IMG/VR virus record: IMGVR_UViG_3300042544_001456
Coordinates: 57,780 to 121,779 of that record
Origin: a virus
DNA length: 64,000 bases
Strand: one strand, 5' to 3'
Shown in pieces: positions 48,014 through 64,000 of the stretch (its first letter is position 1; each line of letters opens with the position of its first letter). Under the pieces are notes generated by a model. The model saw only the letters and a list, made by a program, of their open reading frames with translations, made no database searches and was not told the origin of the DNA. Made by a program: the position numbers and the translations under genes.

Positions 48014-48595
48014 ATGGAAAACTTTCGCGAAATATCTGGATTGCCTATACTTAATTTAATAGAAGAGTATAACAGATTATTAGATATGAATATTATTAAT
48101 TTTTCTCCAAGAGAACCAAACCAAATCTGTTTAAATACTACAGACGATCAACCGGACAATATACATCACGGAGTTGGTAGTTTAGATTTAGATTGGGACA
48201 AAGCAGGGATAGATATTAAATCAGGAATTCCAACTAATCCTGTTGTACGAGAAAATCCTTTAAAAGAAGAAGATTTTAAACACCTATGCACAAGATTTCA
48301 TGGAACACTTTTTGAAACTGCATATAACGCATTAGACAGTATGTTTGTCTTGGGCAGAGTTAGAATAATGAAATCAAGACCAAAAACATGCTTGTCGTGG
48401 CATGTTGACCATAATGTAAGAGTTCATTATCCTATGCAAACTCAAGAAGGATGCTTAATGGTAATAGAAGATCAAGTGTGTCACTTAGAAAAAAATAAAT
48501 GGTGGTATACAGAAACTCAGAAAAAGCATACAGCGTTTAATGCTAGTACAAAAGAAAGAATACATTTAGTTGCAACAATTATTTCTAGTAAGTGA
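48014..48595 (+). CDS. Putative 2OG-dependent oxygenase, aspartyl/asparaginyl hydroxylase-like
   Basis: 193 residues. His130 and Asp132 in SWHVDHN, His172 in KKHTAFNAS and Arg182 in KERIHLV form the HxD...H...R set of aspartyl/asparaginyl beta-hydroxylase-like enzymes; HTAFNAS resembles the family block with the distal His followed by a short loop and Arg. RVHYPMQTQEGC fits the 2OG-side strand. Its substrate could be a protein side chain or a small molecule. The TGA stop forms part of a convergent hairpin. Third oxygenase of the island. Confidence 0.72.
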   Translation: MENFREISGLPILNLIEEYNRLLDMNIINFSPREPNQICLNTTDDQPDNIHHGVGSLDLDWDKAGIDIKSGIPTNPVVRENPLKEEDFKHLCTRFHGTLFETAYNALDSMFVLGRVRIMKSRPKTCLSWHVDHNVRVHYPMQTQEGCLMVIEDQVCHLEKNKWWYTETQKKHTAFNASTKERIHLVATIISSK

Positions 48596-48613
48596 TTACT
48601 CACTTACTAGAAA
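48582..48613. terminator. Bidirectional hairpin between convergent genes
   Basis: TTTCTAGTAAGTGA (48582-48595), loop TTAC, and TCACTTACTAGAAA (48600-48613) form a perfect 14-bp stem. It holds the stop codons of both convergent genes (plus TGA at 48593-48595; minus stop in 48596-48598). There is no long U-tract on either side, so termination strength is uncertain. Confidence 0.65.
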
Positions 48614-49945
48614 ATTTACAAATTGCCAATCTTTCACAGTAAAGTCTGATTTTACAAATACATACTTACCGAGATACGGCATCGACTTGTCTAAAATAAA
48701 GTCATAGGGCAAATCATCAGGTTCTAGTAATCCGCAATGTGTGTTCTCGTTAACCCAGAGCATTGCAGCAAACAACGGTGCAACTACTTGTAGACTAGTT
48801 GCATTATTATGACTAATCAATGATCTAGTTTCGTCGATGCTTAGTTGACTTCCTAGCCAGTATGCACCAAAATCTCCCATAAACAAAACTCCTAACTCGT
48901 CCATACCGCCGACTAGAGAGTCTGTCATTATTCTTGCATTATCTTGACCTTTTAAGTTTCTTTTAACTAATTCTTCAAGACTTTCGGATGCTACATCACA
49001 CGGACAATATGCATAATGCACAGTCGGTCTATAGTGATCAGTTGTTAAAAATTCTGCAATTGACATAGATTCCTGATGTGTTATTAAATAGCCTACGATA
49101 CTTTTATGACTTGGCGTCCATGTTTTTACTTTTGTAGAACATCCGGGAGTTTTTAAGAAAATGGATGACTTTGTTCCGTATTCGTGGTTGCAGCCTTGCG
49201 ATGGCATTTCTAGTTCGTGTGTACCCCAACCGAGTTCTGCAGGCAATATTCCCTCGGCAATAAAACCATCAACGCTCCAAGTATTCACGAATTCGTTTTT
49301 CTTTTTTTCGGATAAGTCAAATTGCGAATCTCTCTCAGATACGTGTATTGTTTTAAGTCCTATTTTTTTAGAAAGCTCTGCCCATTCAATTTTATTTGTG
49401 GGTGTATCTTCGTATCCAAGAATTTTTGATATTCTTAAAATTCCGTCTTTAACTATGTGGTTTACTAACCCGGGATTAGCACCGTGCGATACAATAGCTG
49501 TAGATTTATTTTTTCTATCGTTTTTTGTACTGATTAGTTTGTTTCTTAATCCATAATTTGATCTTTCACTGTCTGACATCGAAAAGTTGTCAAAAAATCC
49601 TGGCCACGGTTGAATACATGTATCTATATAATTTAAATTGTTTAACATGCAATAATCGATTAAATCTTGTGAAGACACGTCGACTGTTAAGTTAATTACT
49701 AGATCACCGTCGGATGTATAATTTGACAGAAGCTCTTTGTAAGAATCTTTCTCAATTTTTTTTAAAATTCTAGTAAGATTGTATTGTTCAGTGATGTCAC
49801 TATTTCGGTTATCTTCAGAAATAATTGTAACATTAGGATTTTCGATGTGTTTGTATATTAACGGTAACAGTGCATTAGAAATGCTACCTGCACCGAGGAT
49901 AATTATTTTTTTAAAATTTTTATATGTCGTAGTATAGTGGGTCAT
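48596..49945 (-). CDS. Homospermidine synthase-like protein
   Basis: 449 residues. KIIILGAGSISNALLPLIYK (13-32) is the NAD-binding Rossmann start. NYIDTCIQPWPGFF and the hallmark VSHGANPGLVNHIVKDGI match homospermidine synthases of the saccharopine-dehydrogenase superfamily. WAELSKKIGLKTIHVSERDS, ATSLQVVAPLFAAMLW and the CGLLEPDDLPYD ending also fit. Bacterial enzymes (~470 residues) make homospermidine from putrescine (or putrescine and spermidine) with NAD. In a phage this could supply a polyamine to neutralise DNA charge, or a building block for modification. It overlaps the gene upstream in its operon by 26 bases. Confidence 0.85.
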   Translation of the reverse strand: MTHYTTTYKNFKKIIILGAGSISNALLPLIYKHIENPNVTIISEDNRNSDITEQYNLTRILKKIEKDSYKELLSNYTSDGDLVINLTVDVSSQDLIDYCMLNNLNYIDTCIQPWPGFFDNFSMSDSERSNYGLRNKLISTKNDRKNKSTAIVSHGANPGLVNHIVKDGILRISKILGYEDTPTNKIEWAELSKKIGLKTIHVSERDSQFDLSEKKKNEFVNTWSVDGFIAEGILPAELGWGTHELEMPSQGCNHEYGTKSSIFLKTPGCSTKVKTWTPSHKSIVGYLITHQESMSIAEFLTTDHYRPTVHYAYCPCDVASESLEELVKRNLKGQDNARIMTDSLVGGMDELGVLFMGDFGAYWLGSQLSIDETRSLISHNNATSLQVVAPLFAAMLWVNENTHCGLLEPDDLPYDFILDKSMPYLGKYVFVKSDFTVKDWQFVNFLVSE

Positions 49946-51191
49946 TTTCTTTAAATCCTCTTGCTAAAAAGTCATTTGATGTTGTTCTAATAATTTGCCA
50001 GTTGTTAAATTCATTTTCAGAAATTATATCTTTTATTGGATGTATAAACTGTGCCATTGGTTTTTTAGTCCAGTCAATATCTTCGATTGTGTTAAATGTA
50101 ATTTCGTGCATTTCTTTTTTATAGTATATTAATAGTGATTCCTTGATGTATTCGTAGCCTGTTATTTTCTCATAAAATTTTAATTTTTGAGATCCATGCA
50201 TCATACTAACTTTTCTTTTAAAATTATAATCGACTGTCTTGGTTGATTGCACATCTTCTAGTTTTAAAAATGCATATATTTGCTCTGGACTATACATAAA
50301 AAAATCATAAATGCATGTGTTGTTAGTCAAGTGTGCCCACGTAGGAGCAGAAAGGCCTATAGAATAAGAACAGTCTCCGATGCATACTTCGCCATCTTTA
50401 TTCAGTTTCATTTCGACCTGATCTGAGGCCATGATCGGAACGCCGCCTAACTTGTTTATGTGTTCGATCATAAGTTGTTGAGTATAAAGATATGGCAGAA
50501 TAAAATAAGTTTCATAAACTCCGTTTATAAAATATTCTCTATGTCTGTTGTTATATAGATCTTCTAGAATATTCACATCTTTGGTAACAAGTTTTATGTT
50601 ATATTTTTTACATAAATCAACAGCGTGTTTAATATCGTGTTCGTTTAATATTTTATCTTTATGCTTATAAACTAAAGAAAATGCCGTAAATTTAACATTA
50701 GCATCGATAAATGCAAGAGCCATAAGTTCAGAATCTAATCCTCCACTTAAACAAAGAAAGATATCTTTATATCTTTCTTTTATATGTTTTGCACTGTTTA
50801 CACATTCATCCCACCATGACATAACTTCAATGTCTTTAGGAATTTTAAACTTTTCTATAAAAGGAAGCAAAGGCAAATTAGGTAAAGCAGTTAAACCGTA
50901 TCCAAATGATAAATTAGAATCTTTAGAAAACTTACAAGTATTTGTGCTAACAAATTGTTTATTTATAATATAAAAATCATGTATTTTGTTGTTAACTTCT
51001 ACTTTTATAGAAATGTTACTTACATCGTTTTTAAGTAATAAGAAATCTTGATCCTTATTATAAATTTTATAAGGAATAGTGGATAAGTCTACTATTCCTG
51101 GATTAACATAAATTGCTGGGTGTGTTATATCTGGTTTTTTTAGTTTTTGTAAAATAAATTTTTCTACATCGTTTATGTATAATCTACCCAT
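49920..51191 (-). CDS. Asparagine-synthetase-like PP-loop protein
   Basis: 423 residues. FLCLSGGLDSELMALAFID places the PP-loop SGGLDS at 149-154, with a helix after it and FTAFSLVYKHKD as the second strand. The N-terminal ~115 residues are a beta-rich domain but lack the Cys2 glutaminase nucleophile, so ammonia must come from elsewhere or another amine is used. C-terminal half is long and helical. Beta-lactam- or carbapenem-type amide synthetases and asparagine synthetases share this fold; substrate unknown. Adjacent to homospermidine synthase: an amidation using the polyamine is conceivable (inference). Confidence 0.75.
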   Translation of the reverse strand: MGRLYINDVEKFILQKLKKPDITHPAIYVNPGIVDLSTIPYKIYNKDQDFLLLKNDVSNISIKVEVNNKIHDFYIINKQFVSTNTCKFSKDSNLSFGYGLTALPNLPLLPFIEKFKIPKDIEVMSWWDECVNSAKHIKERYKDIFLCLSGGLDSELMALAFIDANVKFTAFSLVYKHKDKILNEHDIKHAVDLCKKYNIKLVTKDVNILEDLYNNRHREYFINGVYETYFILPYLYTQQLMIEHINKLGGVPIMASDQVEMKLNKDGEVCIGDCSYSIGLSAPTWAHLTNNTCIYDFFMYSPEQIYAFLKLEDVQSTKTVDYNFKRKVSMMHGSQKLKFYEKITGYEYIKESLLIYYKKEMHEITFNTIEDIDWTKKPMAQFIHPIKDIISENEFNNWQIIRTTSNDFLARGFKENDPLYYDI

Positions 51192-51279
51192 TATTTTTTA
51201 ATTTCTTTCAACTTACATAATTTTCTATGTTTATCTATTACTTGATTGGGCAGTTGTTTTATAAAATTTAAAACACAGC

Positions 51280-51849
51280 TTAATCGGGCAACATATTCCA
51301 TTCATCTTTTGTTATAGATGCAAATGGCAATTTAGCACCAGTAAAAGATTTTACTATAACTTTTTGATATGCAGATTTTTTAGTTGACGTGGGCACAACT
51401 TTTATCATATTATCCATTATATCCCAATCTTTGTAAAAGTCAACCACAGTCTTTGCTTTTTTAAAAAAAAATTCTGATTTATAATGCTCTCTAGAACTAA
51501 AAACAATATCTATGTGTGATTGAAACTTAGTTACCTGATGAGGAACAATGTACATTGGATTATAAAAGTTGTATGCATTATTTCTAAATTTAGGATTTAC
51601 GTAAGTTCTGTTGGAACTTCTATAAATGCGTTCACCCCAACCGGGTCTAGAATAAAGTCCGCTAAAACAAATGATTTCGTCGTCGTCGGTAAGCAGCAAG
51701 TCATAAGTTAAATGATTTTTAAAATCCATATTTTCATATGTATAATTTTCATTTCTCTTACTTTCATCTGCAGATAGCAGCGACATCATTTTATCAAAGT
51801 AGGACGGGTCGGAAATTTTTCCGTGAATTATTACATTCTTAATTTTCAT
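51280..51849 (-). CDS. Unknown protein next to the tail-fibre gene
   Basis: 189 residues. KNVIIHGKISDPSYFDK and YDLLLTDDDEIICFSGLYSR are the first ordered segments; a GxGxxxYRSSNRTYVNP block follows and the C-terminus is basic (SAYQKVIVKSF). The pattern of a central CFSGLY strand and FRNNAYNF helix could fit a GNAT-type acyltransferase, but no acetyl-CoA P-loop is clear. It follows the fibre gene after a hairpin, a position where phages keep fibre chaperones or modifiers. No ribosome binding site better than AAAGTTG. Function unknown. The 88 bases between this gene and the next (51192-51279) hold no ORF I can support. Confidence 0.65.
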   Translation of the reverse strand: MKIKNVIIHGKISDPSYFDKMMSLLSADESKRNENYTYENMDFKNHLTYDLLLTDDDEIICFSGLYSRPGWGERIYRSSNRTYVNPKFRNNAYNFYNPMYIVPHQVTKFQSHIDIVFSSREHYKSEFFFKKAKTVVDFYKDWDIMDNMIKVVPTSTKKSAYQKVIVKSFTGAKLPFASITKDEWNMLPD

Positions 51850-51878
51850 TTTACAACTTTAAGCTTATTGAGTAAACA

Positions 51879-51909
51879 TTACTTTACAAGAGATTCTCTT
51901 GTAAAGTAA
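51879..51909 (-). terminator. Strong hairpin after the fibre gene
   Basis: TTACTTTACAAGAGA (51879-51893) and its exact complement TCTCTTGTAAAGTAA (51895-51909) surround one base, giving a 14-bp stem with a 3-base loop. It begins six bases after the fibre stop codon. Only a weak T-rich tail follows on the minus strand (TGTTTACTC), so it may act as terminator or RNA-stabilising stem. Confidence 0.65.
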
Positions 51910-51915
51910 TTAGTA

Positions 51916-53361
51916 TTACGCACTTGTGCCGTCGTCGATATTGATCCAAGAATTGTTTTGATAGCCCTGAAATCTATTTGCTGTGGTGTTATAAATAACC
52001 ATTCCATTTTCTGGAAATAGGGCATCGCGTTCAGAAGTAGTTAACCGACCAAACATTACATAATTACTTGCAACAATTGATCCGTTAATTGCATCAATTA
52101 TAGTAGTGCTGTCGTCTGCCACAACCGAACCGTTAAATGATGCAGCAGTAACAGTTCCTGTAACTACTGCATTTCCACGAACATCTAGACGCTCAGTAGG
52201 ACTAAAGGTTCCTATACCAAGCTTATTTTCAAACGAGTATGTTATATATGTAGATTCGTCAAAATCTACTCCGTTAGAATTGTACGAGAAAAACAGCCCG
52301 AGGTTGTCAGCCCCGATAATAGCGGATGTAGTAGTAAGGAAATTCTCAGTCTTTTCAAAAGTAAGTTTTCCGTAAACCATGTCATCGGTAATAGCCGAGT
52401 TGGATGTTCTACGTAAACGAAGTTCTGATGTGTTATCAACGGAATCAGTCATTAGAACAGTAGATTCACCGCTCTCAGCGGAAGTTACAATAAGAACATC
52501 GCCACTACTGTGAAAAATTCTAGAAGTATTTGTTCGATCAGCTGTTACCGTTCCTGTTGTAGCATCAACTATAATTGTGCTGTCAAGACCTACAACACTA
52601 ATTTTATAATTACCGCCTTCAGAAATTCCTATGTCAGAAGCCGATAAATTAACCCAACTACTTCCGTCATAAAATAGTACATCATTAAAAGTTGGATTAA
52701 CTATTCCAACTTCGGCTATTTGAGTTAATGATATATTTGATAAGAGACTTCCGTCTCCGATAAATGTTCCAAAGAAAGAACTAGAATTTGAATCGATTAA
52801 CAGTGTACTATCTTCGGCTCTTAGCGATCCCTGATGAGTTCCTATAAAATCGCCATACATAGTTTTTGTTTCTGCATCAACAAGAATATCGTTATCAAAT
52901 GCTCTAATGTATCCTGTAACGTTTATAGTATATTCACCACTTGGCACAATAGTACCGGGAACATTTACTAAATTTGTTCCATCCCCAAAAAAGTTGCCGA
53001 ATATTGTGTTACTAGCCGGATCTACTAATACAGTACTGTCATATCCTCTAACAGCACCGCGTATGCTAATATCATATTCTTGTCCCGACTGTACACCGAT
53101 GTCTATGCCAGTTAGTCCAGAACCGTCACCAACAAACGAAGTAGCACTTATTGTACCACTACCTTGAATACTATAACCGTTAAGATTTAAATTTTGTGTT
53201 AGACTACTAGGCGACCCAATGTTAGATACTTTTATACCACCTACAGTGGTACCGTCCCCGGCGTACAAGTCTTTTGTGTCGGTTATGTAAACGAGCTCGC
53301 CTTCCTGAAAAACGATAGATTGTCTTGCAAGATCAGTTCCGCGTCTTAGTCGCAATGTCAT
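51916..53361 (-). CDS. Tail-fibre-type virion protein with internal repeats
   Basis: 481 residues. The N-terminal RRGTDLARQSIVFQEGEL and VYITDTKDLYAGDGTTVGG (5-43) match the anchor domain found on many phage fibre proteins (Mtd-N-like). A chain of repeats follows: ATSFVGDGSGLTG, TIFGNFFGDGTNLVN, MYGDFIGTHQGS, SFFGTFIGDGSLLSN, each preceded by a DST(x)LVD segment. The middle (~285-400) carries longer beta sequence and the C-terminal VIYNTTANRFQGYQNNSW is a typical fibre ending. It would be the receptor-binding or short-fibre protein. Its ribosome binding site lies inside a perfect hairpin with a late promoter. Candidate substrate for the island's enzymes. Confidence 0.85.
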   Translation of the reverse strand: MTLRLRRGTDLARQSIVFQEGELVYITDTKDLYAGDGTTVGGIKVSNIGSPSSLTQNLNLNGYSIQGSGTISATSFVGDGSGLTGIDIGVQSGQEYDISIRGAVRGYDSTVLVDPASNTIFGNFFGDGTNLVNVPGTIVPSGEYTINVTGYIRAFDNDILVDAETKTMYGDFIGTHQGSLRAEDSTLLIDSNSSSFFGTFIGDGSLLSNISLTQIAEVGIVNPTFNDVLFYDGSSWVNLSASDIGISEGGNYKISVVGLDSTIIVDATTGTVTADRTNTSRIFHSSGDVLIVTSAESGESTVLMTDSVDNTSELRLRRTSNSAITDDMVYGKLTFEKTENFLTTTSAIIGADNLGLFFSYNSNGVDFDESTYITYSFENKLGIGTFSPTERLDVRGNAVVTGTVTAASFNGSVVADDSTTIIDAINGSIVASNYVMFGRLTTSERDALFPENGMVIYNTTANRFQGYQNNSWINIDDGTSA

Positions 53362-53368
53362 ATTAGAA

Positions 53369-53415
53369 ATCCCCTAGTGTGATATTAATTATATATATTT
53401 ATCACACTAGGGGAT
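53369..53415 (-). promoter_or_regulatory. RBS-trapping hairpin with embedded late-type promoter
   Basis: On the minus strand ATCCCCTAGTGTGATA (53415-53400), a 15-base loop and TATCACACTAGGGGAT (53384-53369) form a perfect 16-bp stem. The second arm contains AGGGGAT, the Shine-Dalgarno of the fibre gene (ATG at 53361). GATAAATA at 53403-53396 fits the T4-like late box NATAAATA; transcription from it would begin near 53390, in the loop, and give an RNA without the first arm and thus a free ribosome binding site. Read-through RNA from upstream genes would fold and block translation. Confidence 0.8.
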
Positions 53416-53418
53416 GAA

Positions 53419-53787
53419 TCACTTATTCAATTTGAGAAATCTATATACTCTTTTACTTAGGTCGTTTTTAACACGTTCTAAATCTAATCTAAAGTCTATA
53501 GTTTCAATTTTTGTATCGTATTCTTCAAATAGTTGATCAAGTTGATCTTCTATGTATTCGATAGGTTGTTTTTTTCTACTGTCGTCGATATCAATATCCC
53601 AAACAGCACCGTCTTGAAATGTAATAACAATACGATTAATGTATTCTAAAGGAAGATACTCCATGTCAATAGAGTCAAATATTTCCTGCCAATGCTCTTC
53701 GCTATGCTCAGTATGTGTTATTTTTTTCTTAGACACTTTCTTTAGAGCTTGCCTTTTTCTTAGTCGGGGAAATTTCTTCAGCCTCAT
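53419..53787 (-). CDS. Conserved-looking small phage protein, unknown
   Basis: 122 residues from the ATG at 53787; a GTG at 53736 is an alternative start that would leave only an 8-base overlap with the upstream gene rather than 59. Core: EYINRIVITFQDGAVWDIDI, then KKQPIEYIEDQLDQLFEEYD and a basic C-terminus. A small acidic/basic soluble protein, probably a virion or assembly component by position between fibre and VWA genes. No domain recognised. Confidence 0.65.
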   Translation of the reverse strand: MRLKKFPRLRKRQALKKVSKKKITHTEHSEEHWQEIFDSIDMEYLPLEYINRIVITFQDGAVWDIDIDDSRKKQPIEYIEDQLDQLFEEYDTKIETIDFRLDLERVKNDLSKRVYRFLKLNK

Positions 53788-54340
53788 CTCTCAAACGTTT
53801 AGCTTCCTTATACAACCTGTCGGCTTGACCCCTAAGTTGTGTAGCACGTTCTTCGTCTGTAAGAACTACATGTTGATTGTTGTCGGGAATTTGTTCAAAC
53901 TCTTGAACCGCTTCGGATACTTTCTCTGGTTTAGCAGCCGGTGCCTGATTAGTAGGCTTTATAGCAAGATCCTCGATTGCAATACCACGCTGAGTTGCAA
54001 TGAGTTCATTTAGCTGATCTAGCCCGACTACACTTTTTGTATCAGGAGTCATTTCAACATCAACTGTGCGTAATTTTTTTAATTTACCGGTGGCATGAAA
54101 TCCAGCAAGCATGTTTCTGCCATCCGGTAGATACGACCTTGCCATTGCTTCGGCAAGCTCATTTGCTTGTTGCCCAGCAGGCGATTCTACCAACTTAATT
54201 AACACATCGTGTTCATCAGCTGGCAAAGATTCCGTAAGAACAACCAAACAACTGTACGGATCTCCAGGCAAGGTTCTGTAGGCTACAATCGTTCTTTTTT
54301 TGTTGTTTTTTAAACGTCCTACATGTTTTAAATTAGCCAT
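53729..54340 (-). CDS. Unknown phage protein with coiled C-terminus
   Basis: 203 residues. N-terminal ~110 residues form a compact domain: RTIVAYRTLPGDPYSCLVVL, then ELAEAMARSYLPDGRNMLAG. A Pro/Ala/Lys-rich linker (TNQAPAAKPEKVSEAVQEFE) leads to a highly charged helix (RATQLRGQADRLYKEAKRLR) and a Lys/Ser tail, a likely coiled coil. Higher GC and more regular codons than the island genes indicate a conserved phage core gene. Position next to the fibre and MoxR-VWA genes suggests a virion or assembly role. GGAAAG upstream supports the start. Confidence 0.7.
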   Translation of the reverse strand: MANLKHVGRLKNNKKRTIVAYRTLPGDPYSCLVVLTESLPADEHDVLIKLVESPAGQQANELAEAMARSYLPDGRNMLAGFHATGKLKKLRTVDVEMTPDTKSVVGLDQLNELIATQRGIAIEDLAIKPTNQAPAAKPEKVSEAVQEFEQIPDNNQHVVLTDEERATQLRGQADRLYKEAKRLRDEAEEISPTKKKASSKESV

Positions 54341-54579
54341 TATTCGCTTTCCTCGGTAGCAGCAGGTGTCGCTTGTGCAGCGGCAGCTTGTGCTTGCTTT
54401 TGTTGTTCTTCAACAGCTTTTAAAAACATGTCGAGTTTGTTATAAACAATACCAACCGCAGCCATCTCAGCAGGCTTAAATGCACTGCGTTCGCTTGCAA
54501 TTTCGATGATACTTTTCATAGTTGCAAGATCTTGGATGTTTAGATCGGTAGGGTTGGTTTCTGGTTTTTGTGTAGACAT
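54340..54579 (-). CDS. Small conserved-looking phage protein
   Basis: 79 residues, mostly helical: DLATMKSIIEIASERSAFKP and AVGIVYNKLDMFLKAVEEQQ, then an Ala/Gln-rich low-complexity tail (QAQAAAAQATPAATEE). AAGGAG 8-9 bases before the ATG is a strong ribosome binding site. It shares one base with the next gene. This kind of small helical protein recurs near the structural region of T4-like marine phages; function unknown. Confidence 0.7.
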   Translation of the reverse strand: MSTQKPETNPTDLNIQDLATMKSIIEIASERSAFKPAEMAAVGIVYNKLDMFLKAVEEQQKQAQAAAAQATPAATEESE

Positions 54580-54614
54580 TTTGTATTTCTCCTTGTATAT
54601 TATATATTTTTAAA

Positions 54615-54899
54615 TTATTTGTTGTATTTCAGAATTGGACAAGCCAACATGAAAAAACTCATTTCTGTAGGATTTTCAAATCCTATTTTAATCTTAGATT
54701 TAAAAGGTCTAGAACTTTCTAGATCAACAGCAGATCCGATGTAGTATCTACCGGATAAGTTTTCGTATATCCACTCATCCAACGCTTTTGCTAAGTTATA
54801 AGTTGGTGCAATAGTTGTTGATTCAAAATAAGGAGGGCAGAAATCTACCCTCCTTGCATCTAAAACATTAAGTGGATTAACACTTTCTTTTTTAGCCAT
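54615..54899 (-). CDS. Small unknown protein after the VWA gene
   Basis: The ATG at 54899 is chosen: GAGAAAG precedes it and the first ATG at 55058 is inside the VWA gene. 94 residues starting MAKKESVNPLNVLDARRVDF. YNLAKALDEWIYENLSGRYY and KSKIKIGFENPTEMSFFML are the main segments; it is a mixed alpha/beta protein without a known motif. It overlaps the VWA stop by 8 bases, so it is translated with it. Confidence 0.7.
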   Translation of the reverse strand: MAKKESVNPLNVLDARRVDFCPPYFESTTIAPTYNLAKALDEWIYENLSGRYYIGSAVDLESSRPFKSKIKIGFENPTEMSFFMLACPILKYNK

Positions 54900-56178
54900 T
54901 TGCTTTCTCGTAGTGGGCAGTAATGCCGAACGGTGCTTCGAGATTTTTATTATGATTGCTGTGGATAATGAAGATTGTATCGCAATAGGATTCATCACCC
55001 CAGCTACCAAACGGATATCCATCAGTAAACATGATAAACTTTTTAGGCTGAATATCATGTTTCTTCATGTATGCCCAGTTGCATTCAAAGTCGGTGCCGC
55101 CACCGCCAACAACCTGATATTCGCTGATGTCTTTGCCGTTGTCTGCACTAAAGTCATCTTCGTTGTAAACCTTAGTATCGAAACACCAAACCTTGATATT
55201 ATAGCTTTTAAATTCTTCCATAATACCTTTGATCTCGCCAAGGAAGTCGGATCCTTGTTCGTTGCTAATAGAACCTGACATGTCAATAGACACACAAATG
55301 TCAATTTGTTGGTCGAAGTTCATACCTGGCAATACAGCACCGGTATGCCAACCTTTGCGAGACGGTCGAGCAAAAGTGTAGTCATTACGAATAGTGCTCT
55401 GGATTTGCTGACGCAACAGTTGACGCCAATTCATTTTTGGCTCTGTTAGCTCTTTAATCATTCGCTGAATTTCTCCAGGAACGTTACCAGCACCAGCACT
55501 TTGGGCAGCTTGAATCATTGCTTCTTTGATTTCGTCACGAATCTGACGCAAATCTTCTTTACTCAAACGCGGTCTGCCGCCCTTACCCTCTTTGTCGCCG
55601 TCGTTGTCGCTATCATCCTCGTCGTTCCAGTCAATATGCTCATCGAGCAATTCGCCGAGCGAATCAAGATCGATCTTCTTAGCGTTCTTAAATAGATCGT
55701 CGTAAACTTCTTCTGAAGTCCACTTGTCATATTTAAAATCTTGGAAACAATCAACAACCTTGGGTTTAGCACCAATTCGGTCACGGACCAGCAAGTTGTT
55801 TACAACGTAGTCTGCTGCGATGTTGTAAAGTTTAGGATCTCTGCTTTCACGACGAGTAAGGTGATCGTATACACAGTGAAGAATTTCGTGTGCAATAACA
55901 AACTCAATTTCTTTATTGTCCATAGCATTAAAGAACTGAGTGTTAAAGTAAAGATGACGCCCGTCAGTTGCCGCAGTAGGAAGCCAGTCATCGGCTGGCT
56001 CGATACGAAGTCGAGTGGCCATATTACCAAAGAACGGATGGCGCAAGAGCAATCCAACTCGAGCAACAATAATGCGATCGAGAACATCTTCTCGCATTTT
56101 TTTAAGTTCTGCTTCTGTAAGATTCGGATTAGGCTTCCAGTTTTTTTTAGTCTTGGACGCAGTTTGTTTAACAGACAT
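54892..56178 (-). CDS. VWA-like domain protein with N-terminal metallopeptidase-like domain
   Basis: 428 residues. The N-terminal domain has VIAHEILHCVYDH with His97, Glu98 and His101, an HExxH zinc site, as in the DUF2201-type metallopeptidase-like domain. An acidic linker (NDEDDSDNDGDKEGKG) follows. The C-terminal VWA-like domain has ICVSIDMSGSIS with MIDAS residues Asp299, Ser301 and Ser303. Such proteins pair with MoxR-type AAA+ ATPases, here the next gene upstream; annotation in T4-like cyanophages sometimes uses CobS/CobT. The pair probably acts as a chaperone or remodelling complex during virion assembly or metal-cofactor handling. It has its own promoter and a terminator separates it from the MoxR gene. 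Confidence 0.85.
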   Translation of the reverse strand: MSVKQTASKTKKNWKPNPNLTEAELKKMREDVLDRIIVARVGLLLRHPFFGNMATRLRIEPADDWLPTAATDGRHLYFNTQFFNAMDNKEIEFVIAHEILHCVYDHLTRRESRDPKLYNIAADYVVNNLLVRDRIGAKPKVVDCFQDFKYDKWTSEEVYDDLFKNAKKIDLDSLGELLDEHIDWNDEDDSDNDGDKEGKGGRPRLSKEDLRQIRDEIKEAMIQAAQSAGAGNVPGEIQRMIKELTEPKMNWRQLLRQQIQSTIRNDYTFARPSRKGWHTGAVLPGMNFDQQIDICVSIDMSGSISNEQGSDFLGEIKGIMEEFKSYNIKVWCFDTKVYNEDDFSADNGKDISEYQVVGGGGTDFECNWAYMKKHDIQPKKFIMFTDGYPFGSWGDESYCDTIFIIHSNHNKNLEAPFGITAHYEKANG

Positions 56179-56189
56179 AGTATACCTCG

Positions 56190-56237
56190 TGTTCAGTGCC
56201 TATACTGTAATGTAACAGTATTTACGTTAGATGTCAA
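56190..56237 (-). promoter_or_regulatory. Sigma70-type promoter and shared leader of the VWA gene
   Basis: On the minus strand TTGACA (56237-56232), a 17-base spacer and TACATT (56214-56209). The -10 box is flanked by ATACTGT and ACAGTAT (56202-56221), a 7-bp inverted repeat. The leader reads TATAGGCACTGAACA (56204-56190), identical over 15 bases to that of the MoxR gene. Confidence 0.75.
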
Positions 56238-56246
56238 CCAGTGGAT

Positions 56247-56280
56247 AGAAAAAGTGGGCGGAGTTCAACCCGCCCACTTT
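56247..56280 (-). terminator. Rho-independent terminator after the MoxR gene
   Basis: On the minus strand AAAGTGGGCGG (56280-56270), an 8-base loop and CCGCCCACTTT (56261-56251) form a perfect 11-bp GC-rich stem, followed by TTC and an overall T-rich stretch (CTTTTTCTATCC). It starts 10 bases after the MoxR stop, giving a classic intrinsic terminator. Confidence 0.85.
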
Positions 56281-56290
56281 ATTTCTCACC

Positions 56291-57373
56291 TTAAGCAGAC
56301 TGAGCTGCTTTAATGTATTTGCCGTAGCGATTGTGGAACTCGTCAAAGCATTCAACAGCATCAGGATCGATCGGCAGTTGATACTGAGTAAGAGCAAGTT
56401 TAATGCCCATTACAACAAGTTCAGTGTCGAAATTATCCATCGCAAACCGAAGGAAGTTGTTGACTTTATCGTCAAACTTCTTATCGCCTTTGTCGGATGC
56501 ATCTTTGAGCTCGTAGCAGAGCGAGACTGTCAAGGAATACATGGCACTGATTTCTTTAGTCTTCATCTCTTTGACCTTACCGGCAAGAATGTCAGTTGGG
56601 TCAGGCATACTAGCAGCAACCTTGCGGTGAGCCATGAACTTAACGGCAAGTCCTTCACCAACTGCACCTGCAACCAGGTCAGTGGTAGTACCGTCGTCAA
56701 GATTATCGGAAAGCAGTTCGCTAACAAACGACCACGAACGCGGAGTTGCAAAAGAACGGCTTGGCGATTTAGGATCAAAGTCGTAGAGGTCCTTCTTTGA
56801 GAAGTTAAGGAAACCAACTACATCTTTGTGAATTTTGTTGTCAACTGCCCACTGGAACCAGTCGTCGAAGTTAACCTGCATTTCGAGGTGAACAAAGCGG
56901 TTAGCAAGCGGCGCCGGCATACGATAAGTAACACCTTTGTCAGCTTCACGGTTACCGGCAGCAACAATCATAACGTTGTCGGGCAGTCGATAAGTGCCAA
57001 CTTTACGGTTAAGAATCAGCTGATACGCAGCAGCTTGCACAGCAGGTGCAGCACTGTTCATTTCGTCAAGGAACAAAATGATATTTTTGTGTTTTGCAGC
57101 AAGAGCTTCGTCCGGAAGTTCGCTCGGCGGTGCCCAAACCATTTTGCTTTCATTGGAATCAAAGTACGGAATACCTTTGATGTCAGTAGGTTCCCAAAGC
57201 GACAAGCGGACGTCAATAACGTGAGCGTCAATAAGTTCACCAATCTGGTGAACTACGTCGGATTTTCCAATACCAGGAGGACCCCACAGGAAAATTGGAC
57301 GTTTTTTAAGCAATGCATGTTTAATGCCAGTCTTAGCCTTGTTCGGGCTAACGGTGCGAGTATTGTCAGACAT
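56291..57373 (-). CDS. MoxR-type AAA+ ATPase
   Basis: 360 residues. Walker A GPPGIGKSD is at 31-39, Walker B ILFLDEMN at 99-106, and NVMIVAAGNREAD holds the sensor 1 Asn; ALANRFVHLEM is the arginine-finger region. The length and motifs match MoxR/CobS-like ATPases. These remodel proteins together with VWA partners, here the gene at 54892. Base composition is richer in GC than the island. It has its own sigma70-type promoter with a leader shared with the VWA gene and is followed by a strong terminator, so the two genes are separate but co-regulated units. Confidence 0.9.
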   Translation of the reverse strand: MSDNTRTVSPNKAKTGIKHALLKKRPIFLWGPPGIGKSDVVHQIGELIDAHVIDVRLSLWEPTDIKGIPYFDSNESKMVWAPPSELPDEALAAKHKNIILFLDEMNSAAPAVQAAAYQLILNRKVGTYRLPDNVMIVAAGNREADKGVTYRMPAPLANRFVHLEMQVNFDDWFQWAVDNKIHKDVVGFLNFSKKDLYDFDPKSPSRSFATPRSWSFVSELLSDNLDDGTTTDLVAGAVGEGLAVKFMAHRKVAASMPDPTDILAGKVKEMKTKEISAMYSLTVSLCYELKDASDKGDKKFDDKVNNFLRFAMDNFDTELVVMGIKLALTQYQLPIDPDAVECFDEFHNRYGKYIKAAQSA

Positions 57374-57390
57374 ACTGTATCCTTTCGTGT

Positions 57391-57439
57391 TGTTCAGTGC
57401 CTATATACGTAACATAATGCAAAACACTCGTGAAGTCAA
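57391..57439 (-). promoter_or_regulatory. Sigma70-type promoter and shared leader of the MoxR gene
   Basis: On the minus strand TTGACT (57439-57434), a 17-base spacer and TATGTT (57416-57411). The predicted transcript starts near TATAGGCACTGAACA (57405-57391), the same 15 bases as in the VWA leader, followed by a similar ACACGA stretch and AAAGGA as ribosome binding site. Confidence 0.75.
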
Positions 57440-57442
57440 CTA

Positions 57443-58126
57443 CTAAAATTTACCAAAATCGACATCAATTTCCAAATCGTTTTTAATTGTGCCGAGGTCG
57501 ATAGTCATTGGATGAGTTCTATCAATAACACCCATGTCTAATTTTGTCAAGACAGAAAAAAACTTTAAACGAAAATTTCCCGGTATCCTAGTATCTAAAT
57601 TATTATACCACTCTAGATCTCTTTTATAAAATCTTTTTACAGTTTTAATAAGCCTGTTCATTATTGGGATATTATTATACATGTCTTCGACATATCGATT
57701 TAATCGATATTTTTCAACAGAAAATCCTAAGAAAATGTCTATATCTTCTAGTTTTATAAACAAGTTGTTATGATTTAAATCAGGATTTTGAAAATATAAA
57801 ATGCTTTGTAATCCGGTATGTTCGTCGTAGTGCATTTCGTCTTTAAATTTTTCAATCCAGTTGTTAGTTTCTTCTTCGGTCCAATCACGGGGGTGATCTT
57901 CTGTTTTAGAAAGATTTGCTTTAAAAGAATACCACCAACTAACAAATCTGTTCATTGGTTCTCGAACAATCTTAACAATAGTATATTCAGAAAAATTCTT
58001 TATTTGATGATAATCATCTAAAACTTTATAATTGATATGTGGAGCAATATCTGCAAGAAAGTTTGTTCCGCAACGTGCTAATGCACAAATAAGAATTTTT
58101 TCTTCTTCATTATAAATTATGTTCAT
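57443..58126 (-). CDS. Sulfotransferase-like protein
   Basis: 227 residues. ILICALARCGTNFLADIAPH (11-30) is the 5'-phosphosulfate loop and TIVKIVREPMNRFVSWWYSF the 3'-phosphate-binding block with Arg and Ser; KLEDIDIFLGF follows. It matches carbohydrate sulfotransferases (sulfotransferase family 2-type) in layout. It probably transfers sulfate from PAPS to a glycan or protein. It lies among housekeeping genes rather than in the modification island. 17 bases overlap with the gene upstream. Confidence 0.8.
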   Translation of the reverse strand: MNIIYNEEEKILICALARCGTNFLADIAPHINYKVLDDYHQIKNFSEYTIVKIVREPMNRFVSWWYSFKANLSKTEDHPRDWTEEETNNWIEKFKDEMHYDEHTGLQSILYFQNPDLNHNNLFIKLEDIDIFLGFSVEKYRLNRYVEDMYNNIPIMNRLIKTVKRFYKRDLEWYNNLDTRIPGNFRLKFFSVLTKLDMGVIDRTHPMTIDLGTIKNDLEIDVDFGKF

Positions 58127-58508
58127 CCTGATCTTCGCTAGGACGCCTCATTGCTTTTGCAAGTCCATACTTTCTGATGTCGCCACTAAACAGTGTTAGT
58201 TCTACAGCCTTTTTTTCATTTGTAACAAAAACACTTTTCTTAGTTAAGTAATATGGACTGTCTATGTATCGATCAAGATATATCATAACTTGTGCAGTAA
58301 GTGGCATATCTAACGGAAACGGTATTTCGTAAAACTCGATACCTATTTCTTTGACAGTATTAAAACCAGTTTCGGTTAACCCGAGCCCGCCTTCTTTTTT
58401 ATCTCTCGTGTTTTGCCACCACAGAGGTAAAGCTTCTGCAATAGCTGCTTCTGAAACAGATTTTCCTAATTGTTGTAAAAAAATTTTTGTATATATATTT
58501 TTATTCAT
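58110..58508 (-). CDS. Unknown protein
   Basis: The ATG at 58508 is chosen (8 bases into the upstream gene's end; TTG 58514 is an alternative). 132 residues. FLQQLGKSVSEAAIAEALPL and IEFYEIPFPLDMPLTAQVMI are the best-ordered segments; the C-terminus is basic then acidic (AMRRPSEDQDEHN). No domain recognised. It sits in a block of small conserved phage genes. Confidence 0.65.
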   Translation of the reverse strand: MNKNIYTKIFLQQLGKSVSEAAIAEALPLWWQNTRDKKEGGLGLTETGFNTVKEIGIEFYEIPFPLDMPLTAQVMIYLDRYIDSPYYLTKKSVFVTNEKKAVELTLFSGDIRKYGLAKAMRRPSEDQDEHNL

Positions 58509-58791
58509 CGTCAACTTCTTCGCCGCTTGTAAGTTTATACACGGAAAAGTCTGTAGTTTTAAACATGCTGTTTAACTTTTTTGATAAGTTATGTGCATGT
58601 CCAGGATTTGAAAAACTTGTTTTTTTATATTTCGGGCCGGGGTAACTAGTTAACGAATTTGAACTTTTTAGATTAAAGGGCTTTCCTTTATAAAATACTG
58701 CCCACACTGCATCAGCATTTAAAATTTGCTCACACTTGTATGTTCTACTGTTTATAAATTCTAGCAATATACTTGGCTTTGGTCTACTCAT
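58501..58791 (-). CDS. Small unknown protein
   Basis: 96 residues. EFINSRTYKCEQILNADAVW and FYKGKPFNLKSSNSLTSYPG, then KTSFSNPGHAHNLSKKLNSM. It is basic, with a Gly/Ser/Asn loop region and an acidic C-terminus (TSGEEVDDE). A late-type promoter lies 25 bases upstream and ACGGAG gives the ribosome binding site. Function unknown. Confidence 0.68.
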   Translation of the reverse strand: MSRPKPSILLEFINSRTYKCEQILNADAVWAVFYKGKPFNLKSSNSLTSYPGPKYKKTSFSNPGHAHNLSKKLNSMFKTTDFSVYKLTSGEEVDDE

Positions 58792-58815
58792 GGAATACTC
58801 CGTATTATATACGTA

Positions 58816-58823
58816 TATTTATG
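58816..58823 (-). promoter_or_regulatory. Late-type promoter box upstream of 58791
   Basis: CATAAATA on the minus strand fits NATAAATA. The ATG at 58791 is 25 bases downstream, with GGAG between them. The 38-base gap also contains the palindrome ATATACGTATAT (58808-58819). Single-box evidence only. Confidence 0.5.
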
Positions 58824-58829
58824 ACAGAT

Positions 58830-59072
58830 TCAGTTCCAATTGCTACCGCCGTCCATGGAAATAACTATATTTTCGTTACCTCCACCCGAGTTTTCTTTTA
58901 CAAATTTTTCTAAATCGCCATTTAATCTACCCATTACAATTCCTAGGGTAAACGCAAGAGACTTTGCAGTAGCTATGTCTAGTCTAATATCTTTAGAATT
59001 ACTTGAATCGGCACCTTTAACTTGTTGTATAAATTGTGTTATTGGTGTTGTATTAATTGGTTCTATCGACAT
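58830..59072 (-). CDS. Small conserved-looking phage protein
   Basis: 80 residues: TTPITQFIQQVKGADSSNSK, then DIRLDIATAKSLAFTLGIVM and a Gly-rich tail (SGGGNENIVISMDGG). It is mostly helical and has no catalytic motif. It overlaps the upstream gene by 20 bases. The type is familiar among T4-like phage small proteins, but no function can be given. Confidence 0.65.
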   Translation of the reverse strand: MSIEPINTTPITQFIQQVKGADSSNSKDIRLDIATAKSLAFTLGIVMGRLNGDLEKFVKENSGGGNENIVISMDGGSNWN

Positions 59073-59535
59073 TACTTAATGCAGCTTTCATTTCTATATC
59101 TGTTTTATAAGGACCCATGTATTGGTTCCTTTCTATAGTAATTAGCTTTGGACAAAAACTTTTAAGCCAGTTAACATTAAATTTAATGAGATAATAGCCT
59201 GCACAATAAACACTTTTTGACTTTTCGCTCTTAGTAAAAAGCGGAAGCTTTCGAGAAATATCAAACATGCTGTTATACGGTACTCCTCTAGTAGGATATC
59301 CTTGTACAGAGTGTTCGACACTTTTTGATACAGGCGTTGTAATCTTAGCTGTTAGAAAGTTTTTTCCAAATTTCTTTTTAAGTTGCTTTTCATCTTTGTA
59401 AAAGCTGATAGCACCCTTGCTTGACAATATAAAAGAGTTTTCGTCTTTGGTTAACGTTCCGACTCTAACACCTTCATCTTCGACTATCCAAAATTTATCA
59501 TGCAGTATTTCTTTTGCAATAATATGATGTTTCAT
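59053..59535 (-). CDS. Unknown phage protein
   Basis: 160 residues. Beta-rich start (KFWIVEDEGVRVGTLTKDEN) and central basic region (QLKKKFGKNFLTAKI), then VQGYPTRGVPYNSMFDISRK. The C-terminus has KLITIERNQYMGPYKTDIEM. It overlaps the RNase H-like gene by 4 bases, so translation is coupled. No domain is recognised. Probable DNA-metabolism accessory by position only. Confidence 0.68.
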   Translation of the reverse strand: MKHHIIAKEILHDKFWIVEDEGVRVGTLTKDENSFILSSKGAISFYKDEKQLKKKFGKNFLTAKITTPVSKSVEHSVQGYPTRGVPYNSMFDISRKLPLFTKSEKSKSVYCAGYYLIKFNVNWLKSFCPKLITIERNQYMGPYKTDIEMKAALSNVDRTN

Positions 59536-60530
59536 TGTAGTTCTTTCTGTTTAGGATATTTTGCATTTAAAGGTTCGCTAAATGCAATAGCTTGATCAGC
59601 AATTCTTTTCATATCCCACTTGGCACAAAATTTCATAAGTTTCATTCCAACTTGAGTAACATCTTTTGGAATAACATTAGCAATAGTTTTATTAATTTCA
59701 TCTCTGATATGAAGGGGTTGTGCAGTTAGATCGCAAAGTGTAACATTACGCTGATAATCATCAATAACACGGTGTTCAACATTGTTGTGATCTACCCAAC
59801 GCTGTAGCATAAGATTATTCCACGAAAAGCCTTTAGTCTTTTTGTCAGCAAATGCTTCAGTAAGACCGACTTTGTTTTTTGTGCCTTTTGTTCTTACACC
59901 AGGATATGCTGCAAATACATTGTCTGATGTGTCGCCACGCATACACTTTTCAAACAACATCCACTCTGGGTTAGGAGCAGTTTTAATTTCGTTTGTTTTT
60001 TTATCTTTAATTGGTTTGCCTTTGTCGTCAAAATACCCTTCGTGTGTAATCAAAGTATTTTGAACGCCATTATATTGTTTTACATTATGTGTAACCAACT
60101 GTGCAAAGTCACTGTCAGTTGAAATAATGATATGATGATCGTTAGGATGACTTTGAATCCATCCAGCAATCAAGTCATCAGCTTCAAGAATGGGATTCTG
60201 GATCACTGTGCAATTTGTTTTGTTAGTAACAAAATCTTTAAACTCATCAAAGATTTCCCAAAACACACGATCTTCCTCGGCTTCACGCGGACTCATTGCA
60301 TTTCGAGTTTCTTGACGATTGCGTTTGTATGGTTGATAAAAATCTTTACGCCAGCTGCGGCCCTCAAGACAAAAAACAACGTGGTCGGCTTTAAAGTCGA
60401 GCCACGCTTTTTTAATGCTGTTAAGGGTAATGTGTAGAGCCATGCCAACTTTAGTATCGACATCGCCTTTAACAACATGACGTGCTCGAAAAAAAGTATT
60501 TGCTGTGTCTACTAAAACGTAAGTGCTCAT
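59532..60530 (-). CDS. rnh: T4 RNase H-like 5'-3' exonuclease (FEN-1 type)
   Basis: 332 residues. YVLVDTANTFFRARHVVKGD supplies the first metal-binding Asp; FCLEGRSWRKDFYQPYKRNR contains the basic arch-side segment; ILEADDLIAGW and ISTDSDFAQL give the acidic pairs; MRGDTSDNVF is the H3TH-side acidic block. This order fits T4 RNase H and the 5'-nuclease domain of PolI. It removes RNA primers and flaps during phage replication. A typical T4-type core replication gene; full length (T4: 305). Confidence 0.85.
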   Translation of the reverse strand: MSTYVLVDTANTFFRARHVVKGDVDTKVGMALHITLNSIKKAWLDFKADHVVFCLEGRSWRKDFYQPYKRNRQETRNAMSPREAEEDRVFWEIFDEFKDFVTNKTNCTVIQNPILEADDLIAGWIQSHPNDHHIIISTDSDFAQLVTHNVKQYNGVQNTLITHEGYFDDKGKPIKDKKTNEIKTAPNPEWMLFEKCMRGDTSDNVFAAYPGVRTKGTKNKVGLTEAFADKKTKGFSWNNLMLQRWVDHNNVEHRVIDDYQRNVTLCDLTAQPLHIRDEINKTIANVIPKDVTQVGMKLMKFCAKWDMKRIADQAIAFSEPLNAKYPKQKELQ

Positions 60531-60958
60531 GATACCTCTGATTTGCCTTTAGCGATTGGAACTACGTTAATATAGCCGGAACCGCGTTGCGTGTCAAGCC
60601 CTTCATCAGAAAGCATTTGATATACTATATCACGAAACCATCTATCTACAATTTCTTCTTCAGGATCGGCTTCAGTTCCATACCCATTCATTATCAGATC
60701 TTTAATAAAATACTCATTCCAATCCAATTCAAAAAAACCATTACGAATGTTTTCTGGATTTATTTTAGTATCTATAACAGATATGTATGGTTCTTCTTTT
60801 CTTGTAGCACGATCTTTAGGAGAGAGTTTTGCAAGTTCTGATTCTTCTTCTAGTTTTTTCTTTTGCTCAACAAGCATAACAAGATCGGCCTTAGCTGCTT
60901 CTGCTTCAGCTTTAATTTCGTCAATACCTGTAATTTTTCTAAGCCAGTTCTTTATCAT
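60527..60958 (-). CDS. Unknown phage protein with coiled-coil N-terminus
   Basis: 143 residues. NWLRKITGIDEIKAEAEAAK at the N-terminus leads into a charged helix (EQKKKLEEESELAKLSPKDR). The C-terminal ~80 residues are a compact domain with FELDWNEYFIKDLIMNG and YQMLSDEGLDTQRGSGYINV. The first ~25 residues resemble the small ORF at 61242. It overlaps the RNase H-like gene by 4 bases. Function unknown; maybe a replication accessory. Confidence 0.7.
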   Translation of the reverse strand: MIKNWLRKITGIDEIKAEAEAAKADLVMLVEQKKKLEEESELAKLSPKDRATRKEEPYISVIDTKINPENIRNGFFELDWNEYFIKDLIMNGYGTEADPEEEIVDRWFRDIVYQMLSDEGLDTQRGSGYINVVPIAKGKSEVS

Positions 60959-60985
60959 TGTATCCCTTTTAAATTTTTTAGTAGA

Positions 60986-61153
60986 TTAGATATTTTTAAC
61001 ACCATTTCTTTTTTGTACAGTTAAGAAATTGGCTGCTTCTTTTAAGATGTATGAACGGTGATGATCTCCGGCATTTTTTAAATTTATTGCCTCTTCTTTT
61101 ATCACCTTTATCATATCGTCTAGTTGTACATCTAACTTAATATTTGGACTCAC
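60986..61153 (-). CDS. Small unknown ORF (55 residues)
   Basis: GTG start at 61153 with GGAG 10 bases upstream; stop at 60986. It reads MSPNIKLDVQLDDMIKVIKE at the N-terminus and HHRSYILKEAANFLTVQKRN later, a hydrophilic helical pattern. The start overlaps the preceding ORF's stop by four bases (GTGA). It fills the gap between 60958 and 61150. Confidence 0.55.
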   Translation of the reverse strand: MSPNIKLDVQLDDMIKVIKEEAINLKNAGDHHRSYILKEAANFLTVQKRNGVKNI

Positions 61154-61242
61154 AGATTAGCTTCTCCGAGCTGTTTACGGCTAGCCTCTAGTGCTTGCTC
61201 TTCGGATTCTATGCCAGTAATTCTTTTAAGACATTTCTTCAT
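61150..61242 (-). CDS. Small ORF resembling the N-terminus of the 60527 protein (30 residues)
   Basis: The ATG (61242) overlaps the metK stop (TAATG). The peptide starts MKKCLKRITGIESEEQALEA; the motif WLRKITGIDE of the neighbour at 60527-60958 corresponds to CLKRITGIES here. It may be a remnant or a small related helical protein. Stop TGA at 61150-61152 overlaps the next start. Confidence 0.5.
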   Translation of the reverse strand: MKKCLKRITGIESEEQALEASRKQLGEANL

Positions 61243-62336
61243 TACCATCCGATTCTTTCCCACGGCACATCTTTGTCTCCAAAATGTCCATATACACAAT
61301 TTTCACTATACTTATGAAAGTTAAACAAATCAAATCTATCAATAATACCTTTTGGACTTAAATCAATTTCGTTACGAATAAACTGTTCGATACTGCGATT
61401 ATGGCCATTACTATCAATAAGAATACTAGTAGGTTGTTTAACACCGATAGCATATGATAGTTGAATATTACACCAGTCTGCCATTTCGTCTGCTACAACG
61501 TTTTTAGCTAACCATCGTGCCATGTACGCTGCACTTCTATCCACTTTCGTTGGATCCTTGCCACTAAAGGCGCCGCCGCCATGAGGAGCAAAGCCGCCAT
61601 AAGTATCAACGATAATCTTTCGTCCAGTAACACCGGCGTCACCGTCGGGTCCACCGATAACAAAATTGCCAGTAGGATTGAGATGCCATACTGTATTTTC
61701 GTCAATTAAATCTCCTAATACATTGTATGCAGCTTGTTTAGCAAGTTCACGAGCTTCGTTAACATTACCTTCTGTATGTTGTGTGCTAATAACAATTTGG
61801 TCAATACGTTTAATAATACCCTCACGTCTTGCACCATTATATTCTACACTAACTTGTGATTTAGCATCGGGCCCGAGTATATTGTTGGTTTTACGCAGGT
61901 CTTTGAGTTCATGCAAAATTTTATGAGCATAATGAATGGGTGCCGGCATGTAACTATCTGTATGATTACATGCATAACCAAACATAATGCCTTGATCGCC
62001 TGCACCGAATGTATCTGTACCTAGTGCAATATCAGCACTTTGGCTATGGATTTCATTGTAAATTTTTAGTTTATCCCAATGAAACCCATCCTGTTCGTAG
62101 CCAATCTCTTTAACTTTATTGCATACAATTTCTTTTACTTCGTCCTTGCTTACATTAAAGTTCTTTACTTCGCCCGCCAACGTAACGTGGTTGGTAGTTA
62201 CAAGTGTCTCGATTGCAACACGAGTAGTAGTGTCGCCTGCTTTTAATCCAGCATCGACTAGTGCGTCAGAAATTTGGTCTGCAATCTTATCCGGGTGTCC
62301 GTCGCTAACACTTTCGCTAGTAAAAATATAGTTCAT
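61242..62336 (-). CDS. metK: S-adenosylmethionine synthetase
   Basis: 364 residues. SESVSDGHPDKIADQI near the N-terminus, GAGDQG (111-116) in the ATP site and GGGAFSGKDPTKVDRSAAY (253-271) are the family's signature motifs. The length is a little below the bacterial ~384. It makes SAM from methionine and ATP in the cytoplasm. In a phage with 18 radical SAM proteins this would replenish their cofactor (inference). The start overlaps a small 28-residue ORF (ATGA). Confidence 0.92.
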   Translation of the reverse strand: MNYIFTSESVSDGHPDKIADQISDALVDAGLKAGDTTTRVAIETLVTTNHVTLAGEVKNFNVSKDEVKEIVCNKVKEIGYEQDGFHWDKLKIYNEIHSQSADIALGTDTFGAGDQGIMFGYACNHTDSYMPAPIHYAHKILHELKDLRKTNNILGPDAKSQVSVEYNGARREGIIKRIDQIVISTQHTEGNVNEARELAKQAAYNVLGDLIDENTVWHLNPTGNFVIGGPDGDAGVTGRKIIVDTYGGFAPHGGGAFSGKDPTKVDRSAAYMARWLAKNVVADEMADWCNIQLSYAIGVKQPTSILIDSNGHNRSIEQFIRNEIDLSPKGIIDRFDLFNFHKYSENCVYGHFGDKDVPWERIGW

Positions 62337-63999: not shown

Positions 64000-64000
64000 T

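Follow-up and report, generated by a model that had tools for sequence, protein, structure and literature searches.

The T4 review section on inhibitory mRNA leaders (PMC3014915) describes leaders of genes e, soc, 49 and I-TevI in which the Shine-Dalgarno sequence or the AUG lies in a helix. For gene e, the late RNA is described there as lacking the 5' part of the helix, and repression as about 100-fold; several phages, according to a figure legend, have gene e but no apparent structure. T4 late promoter boxes begin at -13, as given in the relevant part of PMC2988020. For the jumbo phage CBB, the available parts of PMC5259590 report a gp55 homologue, gp33 and gp45 homologues that were not found, and ATAAATA motifs before structural genes.

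We analysed a stretch of 64,000 nucleotides (the window) that belongs to a 121,779-base virus record, and in it a hairpin at 53369-53415, which lies ahead of a putative fibre gene as first observed. The initial annotation had claimed a perfect 16-bp stem enclosing the fibre ribosome binding site and a late-type promoter box at the stem/loop junction. Both descriptions proved accurate: the arms are fully complementary with AGGGG inside the 3' arm, and GATAAATA lies with GATA in the stem and AATA in the loop. The features of the locus are as follows.

51916..53361, minus strand: gene behind the hairpin, the one proposed to be regulated, encoding a 481-aa putative tail fibre/adhesin with an Mtd_N-like N-terminus (Mtd_N 23.2 bits, below the cut-off of 26.3)
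53369..53384, minus strand: 3' arm, UAUCACACUAGGGGAU, in both kinds of RNA
53371..53375, minus strand: Shine-Dalgarno AGGGG of the fibre gene, wholly within the 3' arm and 9 nt from the AUG
53390 (about), minus strand: predicted late +1, inside the loop, placed by T4 spacing
53396..53403, minus strand: late promoter box of the T4 type, GATAAATA, divided equally between stem and loop
53400..53415, minus strand: 5' arm, AUCCCCUAGUGUGAUA, expected only in RNA entering from upstream; its pairing is specific to the arm sequence by shuffles
53419..53787, minus strand: upstream gene for a small protein without a family match, the expected source of read-through RNA
53729..54340, minus strand: second upstream gene in the same gene run (phrog_15894)
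54340..54579, minus strand: third upstream gene

This layout is close to that of the T4 gene e leader, which, as far as the review section describes it, also has a late box on the 5' side, the Shine-Dalgarno sequence in the 3' arm and a late RNA without the 5' part; gene e, however, encodes lysozyme, and its leader has two late boxes and a different stem sequence. The gene 49 leader, when folded, similarly places a AATAAATA box at the foot of the 5' arm and buries the initiation region in a long stem, but it serves the Endonuclease VII gene and its stem sequence differs as well. In the I-TevI, I-TevII and mobE leaders a stem blocks translation of early or middle read-through RNA in the way proposed here (PMC3014915, same section), and the I-TevII leader, folded likewise, has its late box in a stem-loop; these, by contrast, are mobile homing endonuclease genes, and I-TevI is linked there with intron splicing. 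The soc leader counts among the inhibitory leaders of that section, but in the same fold its start codon region is paired and its Shine-Dalgarno sequence free. The likeness to T4 e, soc and 49 drawn in the initial annotation therefore stands for e and 49, with a similar layout in the same fold, and not for soc, where the Shine-Dalgarno sequence is not buried. Jumbo phages CBB and GAP32 share the ATAAATA late motif before structural genes and a gp55-like sigma; in contrast to the locus studied here, no hairpin is described for them in the available parts of PMC5259590, from which the words 'hairpin' and 'stem loop' are absent. We recognised no description of such a fibre-gene lock in the open-licence full-text literature, although one may exist. 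What is new is thus the gene, the phage group and the comparative evidence, the principle being already known.

The hairpin and the genes around it

The arms at 53369-53384 and 53400-53415 form 16 bp at 100% complementarity around a 15-nt loop, the longest perfect stem in the window when loops of 3-30 nt are considered. The stem is beyond chance: 16 bp was reached in 0/100 dinucleotide shuffles of the window, in which the largest stem was 14. Folding of the plus-strand letters 53340-53460 gave -31.2 kcal/mol (z -4.4), and 0/200 shuffles were as low. The functional strand is the minus strand, which the first description had not named, and minus-strand RNA reads in the order upstream-gene stop, UUC, AUCCCCUAGUGUGAUA, 15-nt loop, UAUCACACUAGGGGAU, UUCUAAU, AUG, so that the 5' arm starts 3 nt past the stop codon of the upstream gene 53419-53787. 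No window match to Rfam 15 exceeded the gathering score.

The product of 51916-53361 is a putative tail fibre or adhesin, a reading made at the domain level; its own Mtd_N score is below the cut-off, which was passed by all nine of the fibre relatives (of 22) given to Pfam. An identical fibre protein is encoded in two records of 330,024 and 138,699 bases. Among 50,697 phage records, none showed DNA similarity to 51916-54340 and none matched the upstream protein at E 0.01; the protein of 53729-54340 matched 54 of them, all at <60% identity, and the 20 listed are 321-378 kb in size. The window's own record encodes a gp55-like late sigma (phrog_234, E 1.6e-23), as do 7/7 relatives searched (E 1.8e-21 to 1.1e-23), the matches spanning about 98-129 of 181 profile positions. 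Matches to gp45 (phrog_223) were found in 0/8 records, a search in which the positive control was equally silent.

Several elements lie downstream on the same side of the fibre gene. A perfect 15-bp hairpin with a 3-nt loop occupies 51878-51910, just past the fibre stop and before the gene 51280-51849. Further downstream of the fibre region are a saccharopine-dehydrogenase-like gene (48596-49945, minus strand) and a gene with weak, below-cut-off PP-loop matches (49920-51191, minus strand).

Conservation and covariation among relatives

An alignment of the upstream protein, used as query against viral contigs, gave 63 loci. The query alignment was drawn from loci found by a pattern of late box plus 3' arm, which makes the set favour the hairpin's clade, whereas neither the pattern scan nor the protein search required a 5' arm or a hairpin. 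The 63 loci reduce to 28 distinct stop-to-start stretches, 25 of which lead into the fibre, leaving 23 once identical stop-to-ATG stretches are merged; the other three continue into another gene, whose start and the upstream stop overlap so that a hairpin would have no space. Hairpins that surround GATAAATA and extend to the Shine-Dalgarno sequence are present in 22/23 distinct stop-to-fibre stretches, which are related to one another and not independent. Stem conservation in relatives, on which the initial annotation had staked its claim beforehand, is therefore found across these homologous stretches.

Shuffling the bases between the upstream stop and GATAAATA gave an equal fold in at most 3/300 trials for 19/22 stretches, the exceptions being L270 (5/300), L274 (6/300) and L289 (11/300). 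In 21 aligned rows GATAAATA is invariant, and the Shine-Dalgarno sequence is AGGAG in the other 20 rows against AGGGG in the window. By folding, all five Shine-Dalgarno bases are paired in 17/22 stretches and at least three in 22/22. Much of the stem opposite the Shine-Dalgarno sequence is lost in L270 and L289, and L286 keeps the outer stem there with only four inner pairs and an unequal internal loop. A first pattern scan, which required both GTGATAAATA and TATCAC, provided leads only, most of the inspected hits among the matches listed seeming to be chance.

Compensatory changes in related phages, which had been proposed as a check, were found at several stem positions that switch pair type. 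MAFFT set the 5' arms in differing registers, and the resulting covariance model, with only 5 pairs, was left unused. Columns were instead set by hand and pairs tallied for 20 of the 22 hairpin stretches, L274 and L286 being omitted for their differently built stems; L295, the stretch with no stem, was not included either. The pair adjoining GTGATA is T-A in one stretch, A-T in three and G-C in one, is absent from both arms in nine and is one-sided in six (n=20); a further relative, L422, has C-G there by eye. At further positions the pair alternates between G-C and A-T, between T-A and C-G, and among A-T, T-A and G-C, and relatives' hairpins also carry paired insertions in their arms. Own arms matched better than swapped arms with the register fitted to the own arms, a procedure that favours the own-arm match (196 vs 172.6, sd 4.1; 0/10,000, kinship ignored), and did so again with the register refitted for every pairing (185 vs a mean of 166.8, sd 3.5; 0/10,000, kinship likewise ignored).

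Stretches where the hairpin is absent or different

A search with the fibre N-terminus, its query again drawn from hairpin carriers, supplied natural controls from the best 80 of 570 loci. These loci and a more distant group (33 loci inspected) show that homologues of the upstream gene are accompanied by late box and fibre outside the clade that has the hairpin as well. We divided the stretches by the end of the upstream protein, K[LVHT]N[KR] in class J and any other ending in class M, a split made after the hairpin-linked endings had been seen; both classes hold many close relatives. With sets drawn partly from the best 80 of 570, z in the left-arm shuffle was -3 or lower in 23/25 distinct class J stretches (exceptions L289, -2.4, and L295, 0.0), and a hairpin signal was present in 1/36 of the more distant contigs of class M (36 of 38 distinct stretches had a scorable box and Shine-Dalgarno sequence). 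Stretches with some other upstream sequence (10 distinct, again partly from the best 80 of 570) had z <= -3 in 3/7; two of this group, L456 and L476, resemble class M, and moving them makes class M 2/38. On a tree of the upstream proteins, 21/22 hairpin carriers share one branch (support 98/94), with L286 outside it.

The suggestion of a 'conserved regulatory solution' thus applies within one clade (22/23) and fails beyond it, where distant contigs with the same genes and box show the signal in 1/36. The window's hairpin is a feature of that clade and not an inheritance from T4, and its likeness to e and 49 a recurrence without descent: we see no homology to the T4 leaders because the stem sequences differ and because distant contigs with the same gene pair lack the hairpin.

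Loci L295-L298 have no lock; a terminator-like stem-loop precedes their late box (11 pairs, tail TTCGTTTATC; shuffles 0.3, sd 0.7), and the L295 stretch is the one of the 23 without an equivalent hairpin. The scan for such terminator-like elements allows loops of 3-8 only, which puts the window's stem outside its reach. Elsewhere, L308 and L322 have a stem-loop, TTTAGGGTCA...TGACCCTAAA, directly upstream of a GATAAATA box and a gene starting MAISSLTKLSVPL, the Shine-Dalgarno sequence being uncovered; this stem-loop is possibly another insulator. In the divergent L155 and L447, counted in class M, a stem of about 10 bp lies between the late box and the AUG with the Shine-Dalgarno sequence near its tip, and the predicted late start would cut that hairpin's 5' arm.

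The pattern ATAAATA then TAGGAG has 18 matches in 7/8 records, six of them being the fibre hairpin; the window's own record has no match because its fibre has TAGGGG. Eight of the other 12 matches have a gene start, and in 6/8 the Shine-Dalgarno sequence is at least 0.3 unpaired in the long RNA, the remaining two belonging to a second fibre-like gene. For this second gene, examined in the best 80 of 594 loci, a box and a Shine-Dalgarno sequence are present in 30/50 distinct stretches; 6/30 of these have z <= -3, with unrelated stems, and in 12/30 the Shine-Dalgarno sequence is <0.1 unpaired in the long RNA. Locks therefore recur at the second fibre-like gene but are not general. It belongs to the IQHRRG family, and unrelated late-box hairpins occur in L311:1440-1560 (a 330-kb relative), L402 and L403.

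A proposed translational lock and its alternatives

With the late box at its T4 position (-13), +1 is predicted at about 53390, within the loop; the same spacing puts +1 before the 3' arm in 21/22 stretches and inside it in L274. That the late RNA would lack the 5' arm follows from this assumed start and is no separate test of it. Folding both transcripts, as the initial annotation had advised, gave the expected difference: across 22 stretches the Shine-Dalgarno sequence is on average 0.07 unpaired in the modelled read-through RNA vs 0.66 in the modelled late RNA. The window's own values are 0.00 and only 0.43, and in L247, L252, L258, L270 and L289 the sequence is still 0.20-0.40 unpaired in the modelled long RNA. 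Promoter-spanning pairs are zero in the late RNA by construction, and their count is not used as evidence. We had expected the sense strand to fold better than the antisense strand; it did so in 10 stretches vs 12 of the 22, and the expectation failed.

Read-through RNA into the fibre gene is plausible from the sequence because ATAAATA is absent before the third upstream gene (0/20 stretches where that gene was found, of 22, in the preceding 130 nt) and is rare on the window's minus strand, with just two copies from the fibre start to 64000, at 58822 and 53402. Sigma-70-like matches in 48500-64000 number 58 vs 51.1 in shuffles (sd 6.3), near the shuffle level, and the timing of read-through is therefore something we infer. 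The second CBB promoter motif, TGAAACG, has one match per strand in the window, neither close to the upstream genes.

The stem, its conservation and covariation, the sequestered Shine-Dalgarno sequence, the promoter box and the sigma homologue are all computed features of these loci, and we regard a T4-type translational lock with late bypass as very probably the best explanation of them. Polymerase reading through from the upstream genes would produce a long RNA with both arms, in which the 5' arm would pair with the 3' arm and bury the fibre Shine-Dalgarno sequence, so that no fibre would be made from it; the strength of this repression, like the existence of the long RNA, we infer. The gp55-like late sigma would then direct polymerase to GATAAATA, with a start in the loop at about 53390, and the resulting RNA, without the 5' arm, would leave the Shine-Dalgarno sequence freer, allowing fibre to be made late together with other virion parts. 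Among the points that count against a lock, 35/36 of the more distant contigs (partly from the best 80 of 570) do without the hairpin, and the 5' arm follows the upstream stop by 3 nt, so that the stem could be opened by a ribosome as it completes the upstream gene.

That last point is the core of an unlikely alternative, translational coupling, in which fibre translation from read-through RNA needs upstream-gene ribosomes to melt the 5' arm and the late promoter provides uncoupled synthesis; the hairpin would then set dosage instead of acting as a lock. In 22/22 stretches GATAAATA follows the upstream stop by 9-19 nt, and in the window the arm follows it by 3 nt, which is within the footprint of a terminating ribosome. 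Close packing is, however, also seen in more distant contigs without the hairpin and is thus not hairpin-specific, and the terminator-like stem-loop that one lineage has at the same place points to blocking. For gene e, the T4 review section (PMC3014915) reports repression of about 100-fold.

Far less probable is a DNA operator, with the dyad bound by a dimeric protein that regulates the late promoter within. The dyad does overlap the promoter box, G-U pairs are few among the promoter-spanning pairs (10/337) and the sense and antisense strands fold equally well, but the gap between the arms ranges from 5 to 25 nt across the 22 stretches, leaving half-site spacing unfixed, L286 keeps the outer part of the dyad at the Shine-Dalgarno sequence with its inner part reduced as described above, and the stem takes in at least three of the five Shine-Dalgarno bases throughout. 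We think it equally improbable that the hairpin serves RNA stability or processing, perhaps as a double-strand RNase site, with no role in translation. Long perfect stems can be processed, and the sequence is compatible with this, but such a role leaves unexplained why the arm is complementary to the Shine-Dalgarno sequence in particular and why the predicted late start removes one arm. Least probable of all is a transcription terminator for the upstream genes, which would suit the position right after a stop codon and the terminator-like stem-loop at the equivalent place in L295-L298, but not a stem that contains the fibre Shine-Dalgarno sequence and part of the promoter box and that is followed in the window by TTCTAAT with no T run, five T in a row occurring only in the L247 tail among 22 tails.

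If the hairpin is a translational lock, it would carry the classic T4 control scheme over to a fibre gene, putatively for host recognition, of phages that lie beyond the searched cultured set, and the compensatory changes and natural controls go beyond what the T4 review section (PMC3014915) describes. More tentatively, and with slightly more doubt than confidence, we suggest that an evolvable 'insulation slot' separates the upstream gene from the fibre and holds a bare late box in many contigs, a Shine-Dalgarno lock kept by compensatory change in one clade (including jumbo-size records) and a terminator-like stem-loop in another lineage, with sporadic unrelated locks at the second fibre-like gene. 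Such a slot, if real, would mean that selection in these phages disfavours the production of host-binding fibres ahead of the late phase. Since the same site carries a lock in some relatives, a terminator-like stem-loop in others and neither in the rest, the evolution of such locks and the cost of too-early fibre become testable. The lock's sequence signature may also mark late genes that lie behind non-late genes.

Another hairpin was seen further upstream, at 54830-54855 (minus strand), inside the ORF 54615-55058 (probable start 54899) and about 40 nt into the coding region (NPLNVxxxRRxxFCPPYFE). An equivalent with a stem of at least 8 bp is present in 14/22 stretches including the window's, the arms differing but remaining complementary, and it is possible, judging from these sequences, that this is a regulatory element kept by compensatory, partly synonymous changes. 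Hairpins of this type also occur in L240, L243, L256 and L252, the last of which keeps its pairing despite an Ala in place of Pro in the arm.
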